This document shows positions 23,933 to 55,981 of a stretch of DNA of 64,000 nucleotides, piece by piece (positions within the stretch are counted from its first letter, which is position 1; every line of letters starts with the position of its first letter). The stretch comes from Candidatus Poribacteria bacterium. Its GTDB lineage: Bacteria; Poribacteria; WGA-4E; WGA-3G. A model generated the notes under the pieces. That model was not told the origin of the DNA and searched no databases. It saw only the letters and a program-made list of their open reading frames with translations. The translations under genes were made by a program, and so were the position numbers. Location: the NCBI GenBank assembly GCA_007571305.1, contig RKRR01000002.1, positions 1 through 64,000 of the forward strand, read 5' to 3'.

Positions 23933-24085
23933 ACCCAAGTTGCCAGTTTTGTAGCATAACCTGTTAGGTTGTGCAGCTTCGGGCGCAGACTAACAGTCTA
24001 CGCTACGAAATGCTGCGGTCCCTGAGCATTTTTCAATGAAAAATAGCAGATGCACCTCTAAAAGTGTGTCCGTAGCAACTTAGGT
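23933..24085 (+). mobile_element. MITE-like element, copy A (153 bp)
   Basis: The ends are ACCCAAGTTGC and GCAACTTAGGT, imperfect inverted repeats differing at one base. The flanks carry an exact 8-bp direct repeat TAAATTAT, the expected target duplication. It contains the core hairpin GCATAACC-TGTTA-GGTTGTGC and no reading frame. It is related to the copies at 42895 and 55824, and lies between hslV and hslU. Confidence 0.8.
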
Positions 24086-27048: not shown

Positions 27049-27174
27049 TTATAGTAGAATCCGAAAATAAATTCACACTTGTAGCAGTGCCTGTGAGGCT
27101 GTGCCATCAGAACATATCACTTCAGCGTTCACACGACGCTACAAGTGTCCAAGTCATTACGGAATCTACTATAA
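27049..27174. repeat. Second palindromic repeat family, copy 1 (126 bp)
   Basis: The ends TTATAGTAGAATCCG and CGGAATCTACTATAA are inverted repeats (14 of 15). Inside are ACACTTGTAGC and GCTACAAGTGT plus a diverged core hairpin at 27081-27104. The same end occurs, inverted, at 45299-45313. No target duplication was found. Confidence 0.65.
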
Positions 27175-39487: not shown

Positions 39488-39493
39488 ATGTTT

Positions 39494-39517
39494 TGTAGCA
39501 TAGCCTGTTAGGCTGTG
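39494..39517 (+). repeat. Core hairpin repeat GCATAGCC-TGTTA-GGCTGTGC
   Basis: This is a solo copy of the hairpin found inside the MITE-like elements: an 8-bp stem with one G-T pair and loop TGTTA. Compared with copy A (AACC/GGTT), the stem here reads AGCC/GGCT, a paired change. Confidence 0.65.
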
Positions 39518-39541
39518 CCTTCTTCAAAGACGGAGGTTTGC

Positions 39542-42852: not shown

Positions 42853-43140
42853 AAAAAAAAGCTAAAGGTTTTGGAAGTCGCTGCATATTATATAACCCAA
42901 GTTGCTACCTATATACTTTCGGATACACGAACACCCTTTTCCACCGAGAATCCTTCATTTTTCCGAAAAATTGGGTGTATTCCGTGTCATTTTCGTGCGA
43001 AGACGCACAGGCTCACGGCCTATGCTACAAGGGGCAACTTAGGTTATATAGCAGTAGGGATTGATATACTTCACAAAGTCGAAATACTCAGGGGCAGGCT
43101 GCCAGCACTAGCTCGAGACGCAGCCCTCCCTGTAAGGATC
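42853..43140 (+). promoter_or_regulatory. Duplicated leader L1, split by a MITE-like element
   Basis: Outside the insertion (42895-43044) this matches leader L2 at 44105-44237 at roughly four of five bases. Shared blocks are AAAAAAAAGCTAAAG, GCATATTATATA, TTGATATAC-TCACAAAGTC and AGGCTGC with GCAGCC, a conserved 6-bp stem with a variable loop. L1 precedes the sigma-like gene by about 330 bp. It may be a promoter/leader RNA unit; the function is unknown. Confidence 0.5.
42895..43044 (-). mobile_element. MITE-like element, copy B (150 bp)
   Basis: The ends are ACCCAAGTTGC and GCAACTTAGGT, flanked by TATATA on both sides. The core hairpin lies at 43005-43027 in inverted orientation compared with copies A and C. 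The uninterrupted counterpart at 44135-44150 has a single TATATA at the same place. Confidence 0.8.
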
Positions 43141-43179
43141 TAGCTATGTTTTGTATAACCAGATTCTATGTAACCTCAT

Positions 43180-43215
43180 AGAGAATCAGCGTCACCCGTG
43201 TGACGCTGATTCTCT
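43180..43215. terminator. Strong 16-bp perfect hairpin before the sigma-like gene
   Basis: AGAGAATCAGCGTCAC pairs perfectly with its complement around the loop CCGT and is followed by TTTACG. The stem is long and GC-balanced, so it could end a transcript from leader L1 or separate the sigma-like gene from upstream. The 260 bases after it are AT-rich and hold TCATATATATAGGA, perhaps a -10 region. Confidence 0.6.
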
Positions 43216-43476
43216 TTACGTCCAGACAAAAATAGAAGACTGACTCACGCTGCCACTCTTGCACATAGAAATTCTTAGAACAAAAGGGACATCTCTCGAG
43301 AAAAAATAGGAAAAACCTTAAAAAATTCGTAAAAAAACTGCATTTTACTCTTAACTTTTCCAGTTTCAGTGTCATATATATAGGACCAGCAAAAAGGAGA
43401 AGATAGGATCGTGTTCGTGAAATCACTCACTTCTTTATCAGACTTCAACTTACCTCTAAATACAAGGAGGGACCCA

Positions 43477-44088
43477 ATGAATGAACATCGGGGGCCACAT
43501 CACTCAGGAAAATGCCCGTTTCATATTGTGCCGGGTCATCCGCTCTCCGCTGAAGCCTCAGTTGATCGCTGTGTTGCCTGCGTCACGCGCTACAATACGC
43601 AATTGGAAAGTCTCTACGAAGATTTTCGCCAAATTGCTTTCCTGACGATCCTGGAAGAAGAACCTAAGTATGACTCAAAGCATCCGAGTCGTGCAAGCTT
43701 CACTACCTTCATGAAGTCGCGTATCTGCAGTCGCCTCTGGTCCGAAAGACGTAATCAACTGAAGTCCCTTCCATTTCCACACCACGAGGAGTACCCGTCA
43801 CAGGGTAATCTGTTAATTCACCATCTGATCGCTGAGACCTGTGCCTGCGAAAGGGAAGAGGACGCGATCGTTCGGGAGATGGAAGTAGAAGAGTTCTGCC
43901 AAGCATTACCCAAACTTTTAACGCACTTATCCGAGAAGGAATGTGAGGTGCTGCGCTTGAAATACTTTGAGGAGTCTAAGGGTGTAGAAATAGCCAAACA
44001 GTTATCAATCTCGGAGGGCAGAGTCAGTCAACTCCTGAAAACCGCACTCACAAAACTGCAAAAAGCCTACCTTTTGGCACAGTTCTAG
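43477..44088 (+). CDS. Sigma-70-like (ECF-type) factor with N-terminal Cys cluster
   Basis: From the ATG at 43477 (perfect AAGGAGG seven bases before it) the product has 203 residues. The end, LSEKECEVLRLKYFEESKG to SISEGRVSQLLKTALTKLQ, is a sigma region 4 helix-turn-helix. The middle (SLYEDFRQIAFLTILEE to RICSRLWSERR) resembles region 2. The N-terminus has CPFH, a spacer of about 15 residues, then CVAC, a possible zinc or redox site. It probably directs RNA polymerase to a small regulon; the repeated leaders L1 and L2 nearby are candidate targets. No anti-sigma gene is obvious. Confidence 0.75.
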   Translation: MNEHRGPHHSGKCPFHIVPGHPLSAEASVDRCVACVTRYNTQLESLYEDFRQIAFLTILEEEPKYDSKHPSRASFTTFMKSRICSRLWSERRNQLKSLPFPHHEEYPSQGNLLIHHLIAETCACEREEDAIVREMEVEEFCQALPKLLTHLSEKECEVLRLKYFEESKGVEIAKQLSISEGRVSQLLKTALTKLQKAYLLAQF

Positions 44089-44104
44089 GAATTTTTGTCA
44101 TCAC

Positions 44105-44237
44105 AAAAAAAAGCTAAAGATTTCAGAAGTCGCCGCATATTATATAGTAGCAGGGCTTGATATACCTCACAAAGTCGAAACACTCAGAGACAGGCTGCTA
44201 TATCTAACACGAGCCGCAGCCATCCCCGTAACAAAGT
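44105..44237 (+). promoter_or_regulatory. Duplicated leader L2, uninterrupted copy
   Basis: This is the paralogue of L1 without the insertion: AAAAAAAAGCTAAAG, GCATATTATATA, GTAGCAGGGCTTGATATACC, TCACAAAGTCGAAACACTC, then GGCTGC and GCAGCC as a stem. It ends just before the ribosome site (GTGGAGG) of the broken membrane-protein gene. It may contain a promoter or a structured leader. Confidence 0.5.
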
Positions 44238-44254: not shown

Positions 44255-45030
44255 ATGTTTGCTGATTTATGTGCCACTCGCGCGATCCAAGCAGGTCTCG
44301 TCTTCTTTCTACTCGTTGTTGGACGGAGTTTGCTCTATAGTTGGCATGTTCACCGGACGACAGATGCCGAGTTGGCATACTTGGGGGCGGATCCTGGCGT
44401 GCTTCAGAACGAGCCACAGACGACACAACACACCATTGATACAAGCCCGGTGGACTTTCAATAAGGCGAAACACCCCTTGAAACCTATGAGACACAAACG
44501 ATGGCTGAAACTTCAGAGACGTTGTCAGTAGATGAAGCCTTCGAACTCACGGGCATGGTGGCTGCCTTCGGACCCGATATTTTTACAGCAGCGGAAGAAC
44601 CCGTATATGCACCGAATGGTGTTTCCTCTACGGGTTTGGTCCCTTTCCAGAAATCCCCGCGGATTATCCAGATCAAGGGGTGTGGAGTGAGGAGCGGCTC
44701 CAGACGATGGAACCACGTCATGAGTTGCTGTCAAGAGTCAGAATTCGGTTGTGGAATCAAGGGGTTCACACCGTCGGTTCTGTCTATGATGGCACGTATA
44801 ACCTCATTTATCCGATTAGAGATAACGGAGTCTACATCAAGTGGGCGGATAATCTGGACCCCGATGGGAAGCCATACGTGCAGCGTCTGCTCACATCTCC
44901 AGCCACAGACGATTCGCTAAACCGGAACAGGTATGGGCTTCATAACGGTATATTTCCGTCACATTTAACGGTTTATGAGTTTCCGGATGGGGGTATCGAC
45001 CCCTACAATTTTCTCTATTTACCGAGATAA
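44255..45030 (+). pseudogene. Broken gene for a single-pass membrane protein (in-frame stop plus frameshift)
   Basis: The sequence starts at ATG 44255 (GGAGG upstream) with a membrane segment AIQAGLVFFLLVVGRSLLYS and reads 69 codons to TAA 44462. The same frame continues as acidic sequence GETPLETYETQTMAETSE up to VYAPNGVSSTG near 44640. The match then moves to the -1 frame: GFGPFPEIPADYPDQGVW, ELLSRVRIRLWNQGV, to FPDGGIDPYNFLYLPR at 45030. Together this makes one protein of about 255 residues, so one nonsense and one frameshift mutation are inferred. It could instead be two or three small genes, but the composition and tight continuity favour decay. The function is unknown. Confidence 0.6.
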
Positions 45031-45040
45031 GGAGACTATC

Positions 45041-45271
45041 ATGAAAATCTTGAATGTCTTTTGCGTCCTGCTCTTTTTGTGGATGAGTGCTACACTCGTC
45101 ACGGATGCGGTTTGGGATGGACGGAAACCTCATCTATTTTTAACGCAAGTTGCTACTCACAAGATTTTAGGCATCCGTTCCCATTTTTCACTGAAACGGT
45201 TTCATGCTTCGGAGGCATTTCGTAGCGTAGGAAACCGCTGGTTTCCTGCGTGCTTAATATGCACAGCCTAA
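45041..45271 (+). CDS. Small secreted or membrane protein, C-terminus replaced by repeat element
   Basis: It starts at ATG 45041, with AAGGAG upstream, 10 bp after the broken gene. It begins MKILNVFCVLLFLWMSATLV (signal peptide or anchor) and DAVWDGRKPHLFLTQ. From about residue 36 the reading frame runs into repeat sequence (GCAAGTTGCTAC at 45147), so the last 40 residues come from the inserted element. The original C-terminus is lost, and it is probably not functional. The function is unknown. Confidence 0.45.
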   Translation: MKILNVFCVLLFLWMSATLVTDAVWDGRKPHLFLTQVATHKILGIRSHFSLKRFHASEAFRSVGNRWFPACLICTA

Positions 45272-45313
45272 CAGGCTATGCTACGAGTGTAAATTTATTG
45301 TCGGATTCTACTA
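45145..45313 (-). repeat. Chimeric repeat element (MITE-like end plus second-family end)
   Basis: The left end GCAAGTTGCTAC resembles the ACCCAAGTTGC end of the MITE-like family. The right end CGGATTCTACTATAAGG with TAAATTTATTG matches the second family at 27049. An inverted core hairpin lies at 45261-45284. It interrupts the small gene at 45041. Confidence 0.6.
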
Positions 45314-45430
45314 TAAGGTAAAGTATTATGTCCACCGAGTGCCTAAACCGGATTGCCCCTGCATTGATTTGCTTTGGTTCGCACTCTATAGGGAGAGACT
45401 ACCAAACCCATCTCGAAAGGAATTAAAAAA

Positions 45431-49501: not shown

Positions 49502-49622
49502 ATGTCATCTTGTTGGAGAATACAAAACCATAAAAACTTACGCAAATGCCTCTCAAATTACGAACAAACACAGTCCTACCGGCACACCAAACAGCACCGT
49601 TTCGTTCAACGCAATCCCCTTT

Positions 49623-49646
49623 GTAGCATAATCTGTTAGGGTGTGC
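49623..49646 (+). repeat. Core hairpin repeat, solo copy
   Basis: GTAGCATAATCTGTTAGGGT is followed by GTGC, the same hairpin core as at 39494 with one mismatch. It lies between convergent genes and may act there as a transcript end. Confidence 0.5.
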
Positions 49647-49686
49647 ATATTCCATTTCCCCGCTTACGAGAGGATAAAGCGGGGCG

Positions 49687-55823: not shown

Positions 55824-55981
55824 ACCCGAGTTGCCACCCTGTAGCATAACCTGTTAGGGTGTGCATAAATGGACACAGGAAACCCACGGTCTCCTATGCT
55901 ACAAAAACATTCAAATACTGAAGGCTTTTCGCTGAAAAACGACATCTATCTACCTAAAAACGTGTCCGTAGCAACTTGGGT
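55824..55981 (+). mobile_element. MITE-like element, copy C (158 bp)
   Basis: The ends are ACCCGAGTTGC and GCAACTTGGGT, flanked by TATAATA on both sides (7-bp duplication). The core hairpin lies at 55841-55864. ACGTGTCCGTAGCAACTT near the right end matches copy A closely. It sits between the RDD-PspA pair and a sulfatase gene. Confidence 0.8.

Follow-up and report, generated by a model that had tools for sequence, protein, structure and literature searches.

In a 64,000-nucleotide stretch of DNA from Candidatus Poribacteria (contig RKRR01000002.1, positions 1 to 64,000; hereafter the window), two related leader sequences, referred to as L1 and L2, are found 1.3 kb apart on either side of a sigma-factor gene, and L1 contains a 150-bp element between two copies of TATATA. 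This arrangement raises the question of whether the two leaders record the sequence before and after an insertion, what was inserted, and what the leaders themselves are. We consider it highly probable that a MITE of the IS982 type was inserted just after the -10 box of L1 with a 6-bp TATATA duplication, and that L2 is an unfilled promoter of the same class. In the proposed mechanism, an IS982-family transposase would have moved a non-autonomous MITE with IS982-type ends into L1 just past the -10 box, and the six bases TATATA would have been duplicated in the process. L1 would be a promoter upstream of the alternative sigma gene and L2, directly past the end of that gene, another promoter of this class, and therefore L2 would display the unfilled state.

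After removal of the element and one TATATA, L1 (42853-42894 joined to 43051-43135) and L2 (44105-44231) were aligned over 127 columns without a gap, and 107 of these columns (84%) are identical; the alignment score is 154, whereas none of 1000 shuffles scored above 26. When L2 was searched against its own 4.8-Mb genome, it matched only its own position and, in two parts, L1 (E 1.8e-20 and 1.3e-9). The earlier note had read L2 as the pre-insertion form and L1 as the post-insertion form, had called for this pairwise alignment, and had named a lapse of similarity past the element as the outcome that would speak against this reading. The likeness picks up directly past the element, and the reading is supported by the alignment, by family-wide target-site duplications (TSDs), and by parental IS982 elements, which together also bear out a 150-bp element between two TATATA copies. 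The L1 remainder beyond the element, a putative 5′-UTR (43051-43135, + strand), is homologous to the corresponding L2 5′-UTR (44147-44231, + strand), with 83% identity over 92 bp. It had further been claimed that the pair fixes the limits of the element and its duplication; the site and the TATATA repeat are given by the pair, whereas the exact ends are not. Every 156-bp cut starting from 42888 to 42895 yields an identical joined L1 and the top score against L2, and thus from L1 and L2 alone the limits are open within the 7-base direct repeat TTATATA. The ends are settled by other family copies and by complete parental IS copies, and the element is consequently defined as ACCC...GGT at 42895-43044 (150 bp). 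It is flanked by a left TATATA at 42889-42894, in direct repeat with the right TATATA at 43045-43050; the former agrees with the TSD statistics of the family and the latter additionally with the L1/L2 alignment and the cut test. A coding function of the two leaders was considered and rejected: frame 0 is open in both, yet 9 of the 20 differences fall at second codon positions, 13 of the 16 changed codons are non-synonymous, and there is no common start. A known structured RNA was also rejected, as no Rfam family matched at an E-value of 1 or below, and the predicted folding of the L2 UTR is on a par with that of its shuffles (z 0.23).

The element, referred to as copy B (ACCCAAGTTGC...GCAACTTAGGT, + strand), is crossed by one open frame from outside and encodes no transposase, its 150 bp being shorter than about 300 bp. 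A search of its own genome with the element listed 42 matches out of 363 first-look candidates, of which 40 span nearly the whole element, and the family end motif ACCYAASTTGCYR occurs 302 times in this genome, versus 5 times for the reversed control. The family is thus a high-copy one, with about 260-300 terminal inverted repeat (TIR) ends in the Candidatus Poribacteria home genome; a count of MITE ends gave 261 in this genome versus 9 to 138 across 23 sampled congeners. TSDs were analysed in 30 copies with flanks, anchored at the element ends. Exact flanking duplications of 6-9 bp were found in 14 of the 30 (7 bp in seven, 8 bp in three, 6 bp in two, and 9 bp in two); they are mostly of the TA...TA form, and in these 14 TA is nearly always present on the element side. 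A mismatch-penalised flank score of at least 5 was reached by 47% of true pairs versus 1.5% of mismatched pairs. The duplication at copy B is 6 bp, against a family mode of 7. Two further copies in the window show exact duplications by eye, namely TATAATA for a copy on the minus strand ending near 55826 and 55981, and TAAATTAT for a copy at about 23933-24084. Identity of the copies to the consensus is 82-91%, and any two of the 30 sampled copies share at most 90% identity; the spread of the family is therefore probably old. Other repeats were observed in the window. A short hairpin repeat, TTTGTAGCATAACCTGTTAGGTTGTGC, occurs within MITEs and also by itself in intergenic positions (39492-39524, 49620-49652, 23948-23980, and 55838-55870). 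A composite repeat at 45138-45319 joins the left end of the IS982-type MITE (TAACGCAAGTTGCTAC) to a right end (CGGATTCTACTATAA) from a different repeat family, a full copy of which lies at 27049-27174.

Parental elements were sought in relatives with the NCBIfam IS982 transposase model, followed by an end scan and a DNA search with the IS982 element of one congener (G016). The ends of the G016 element are ACCCAAGTTGCTACC, and its transposase matches NF033520 above the cut-off (E 1.1e-54). Complete IS982 elements in three congeners (G044, G022, and G041) are flanked by exact 7-bp duplications, TATCTTA, TATTATA, and TATATAA, respectively, and complete copies (L105, L108, and L109) carry at both ends ACCCAAGTTGC, the terminal inverted repeats of the MITE. 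Three sister species accordingly contain intact parents with 7-bp duplications of the TANNNTA type, and a fourth parental element lies at the end of a contig. In the home genome, assembled in 200 contigs, the search for an intact parent returned broken copies only, e.g., C40:21745-22242 (L122), inside which a second, unrelated MITE-like repeat of the TTATAGTAGATTCCG type was observed. Two other candidates for the parent were discarded: none of the PF01609 transposases of the home genome has these TIRs, and the TIRs near locus L086 belong to other elements.

IS982-family elements have direct repeats of 2-10 bp and ends of the form AC(N)6T(N)5TT (PMC7335449). Copy B and the parental elements resemble the family in that their ends start with AC, with T at position 9, and in their direct repeats of variable length, which at multiple MITE copies fall within the 2-10 bp range; the TT at positions 15-16 is matched by half, being CT in both copy B and the parental IS. 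The parents are about 920 bp in length with one transposase, whereas the MITE lacks the gene. The closest known counterparts are MITECca01/02, IS982-derived MITEs of Cardinium cOegib (PMC9769881), which are likewise short, transposase-free, high-copy elements with the ends of an IS982 parent in a symbiont genome. Unlike these elements of about 240 bp, the poribacterial MITE is 150 bp in length, its copies are old and diverged, and its parents are only broken in the home genome and intact in congeners. By its ends, the family is thus an IS982-derived one, of a kind already known. As judged by titles and abstracts, nothing specific on MITEs or IS in Poribacteria was found in the open-access literature; the locus, from a sponge-associated genome, offers a clean comparison of filled and unfilled sites for a MITE family of an uncultured phylum, with IS982 named as the parent.

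The duplicated sequences had been described as leaders, and the duplication stands; they appear to comprise more than a leader, namely, a sigma-factor-specific promoter plus a 5′-UTR. Their first 42 bp constitute a promoter motif consisting of an A-tract, CTAAASNTTT, 11 bp, and GNATAT. In L1 (42853-42894, + strand), the A-tract is at 42853-42860, the -35-like CTAAAGGTTT at 42862-42871, followed by the 11-bp spacer, GCATAT at 42883-42888, and the -10-like TATTAT at 42886-42891; in the unfilled L2 (44105-44146, + strand), the -35-like element is at 44114-44123, GCATAT at 44135-44140, and TATTAT at 44138-44143. The motif was found at 14 distinct sites in 423 kb of poribacterial DNA, all 14 at loci of the lineage of the sigma factor in the window. 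A stricter pattern gave 21 sites in 8 genomes when 60 whole genomes were searched, with none for the control, and 20 of the 21 share their contig with a close homologue of this sigma factor (identity of about 47% or above). The sole exception, G046:C219:6241-6274, belongs to a genome that yielded no such homologue. A variant pattern that tolerates as many as 2 mismatches recovered L1 and L2 only in the home genome, and at sister loci the promoter core precedes the sigma gene and further cluster genes, with no MITE.

The gene between the two leaders (43477-44088, + strand) encodes an alternative sigma-70-family factor of 203 aa with a Pfam Sigma70_r4 domain, and family membership is indicated by TIGR02937 (67.5 versus a cut-off of 42.9 bits). 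Among named subfamilies, FliA/WhiG is the best for sigma region 4, below its cut-off; TIGR02479 matched region 4 only, with 57.3 versus 189.6 bits, and the protein is not assigned to that subfamily. It may nevertheless work in the manner of FliA/WhiG. The -35 half of the motif matches the FliA consensus TAAAGTTT-n11-GCCGATAA (PMC2859248), and the promoters resemble those of FliA/sigma-28 in their TAAAGTTT-like -35 and 11-bp spacing (PMC2859248), whereas the poribacterial -10 is GNATAT(A)nT rather than GCCGATAA and an A-tract stands in front; the sigma factor itself scores far below the cut-off of the FliA model. The named sister records of the sigma locus are Candidatus Poribacteria. The likeliest reading of the motif distribution is that the sigma factor whose gene is flanked by L1 and L2 recognizes promoters of their type, including one before its own gene. 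The recognition sequence of a sigma factor would then be readable from genomes alone, through a motif that recurs across species along with one sigma lineage, and this sigma/promoter pairing is the more useful by-product of the analysis.

The status of L2 as a natural empty site, as claimed in the earlier note, can now be specified. L2 has the unfilled form; as a diverged paralogue (84%), it is an empty site related to L1 and not an empty allele of it. The sister check proposed there was performed: the extended leader (promoter plus UTR) is absent from all 37 other genus genomes examined, and the promoter core is present in congeners without the element. Because of this absence, no allelic unfilled L1 can be read among the 37 congeners, and the related promoters of congeners, together with L2, count on these comparisons as unfilled sites of a paralogous or homologous kind. 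The origin of L1 and L2 in the duplication of one sequence would also suit the alternative that both promoters once held the MITE, that it was precisely excised from L2, and that L1 is the older state. However, L2 contains no footprint and no second TATATA, and the element is absent at that position from all other related promoters examined. We also know of no exact site restoration by an IS982-type transposase, and excision from L2 is regarded as very improbable.

With insertion into L1 as the preferred reading, the position of the element bears on transcription. The MITE starts at 42895, 3 bp past the -10-like hexamer TATTAT, and leaves the -35/-10 core of L1 intact. As transcription usually starts 6-8 nt past the hexamer, the start site of L1 is predicted within the first bases of the element, and because the first transcribed bases are now inside the MITE, an L1 transcript would carry the 150-nt hairpin element at its 5′ end. 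The element RNA is highly structured (-51.5 kcal/mol, z -5.5; z -5.5 and -6.5 on the two strands). This structure and the intact core would suit a recruitment of the MITE, in which the L1 transcript starts within it and the hairpin or a second promoter now sets sigma expression; a Correia element just past a promoter, that of mtrCDE, is a known regulatory case (PMC10969869). The likeness lies in a MITE directly downstream of a promoter; the Correia element is unrelated to the present one, and its regulatory effect was experimentally shown, whereas that of the poribacterial element is putative. Recruitment nevertheless appears improbable, since the insertion is conserved in no other genus genome examined, copy B lies 10% from the consensus as do the other copies, and the gene downstream of L2 is decayed. 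The latter (44255-45030, + strand) has a stop at 44462 and frame changes, with 55-60% tblastn identity to L054, in which a whole homologue is present.

The distance between L1 and the sigma gene suggests another alternative. The interval from L1 to the sigma ATG is 583 bp (427 bp without the MITE), whereas the motif in relatives lies about 90-175 bp before the sigma gene (about 110 bp before the ATG in G017). A perfect 16-bp hairpin with a 4-nt loop and a weak T tail (43180-43215), possibly an attenuator or terminator, lies in between; it was not called as a canonical terminator by a consensus scan. Also ahead of the sigma gene is a second promoter-like block, TTAACTTTT...CATATATATAGG (43301-43390, + strand); its DNA is 78-82% identical to blocks in sigma loci L038 and L053, and it may be recognized by another sigma factor. 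Given this distance and the intervening hairpin and block, L1 might not drive the sigma gene. L1 may instead be the promoter of a lost gene copy, the promoter and UTR of the L2 gene having been duplicated upstream, the gene having decayed, and the MITE having landed in a dead promoter. The 85-bp UTR common to L1 and L2 and absent elsewhere in the genus favors this alternative, as does the separation of L1 from the sigma gene. By contrast, the sigma gene of relatives is preceded by a motif of the same class, and GGTTTTGG is common to L1 and the G017 sigma promoter, whereas GATTT is found in L2 and in the target site of G017. We regard a lost-gene promoter as a serious possibility, somewhat short of an even chance. 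More tentatively, and rather unlikely, the MITE may have cut or rewired a self-activating loop of the sigma factor: L1, once the sigma gene's own promoter, would now give RNA that starts in the hairpin, the second promoter would have assumed its role, and this lineage would be losing the regulon, to which the decayed L2 gene would belong.

Two features of the relatives' sigma clusters were also observed. A gene for an anti-sigma-factor antagonist (STAS) is present in L054 (8323-8712) and in L134 of G017, and the surroundings of the sigma gene in the window showed none. In two sister genomes, furthermore, CRISPR-like repeats (CTTCTAATCGAACCAGTTTGGAATTGAAAC; L054 4450-4690 and L055 4780-4870) stop a short way before the sigma promoter.
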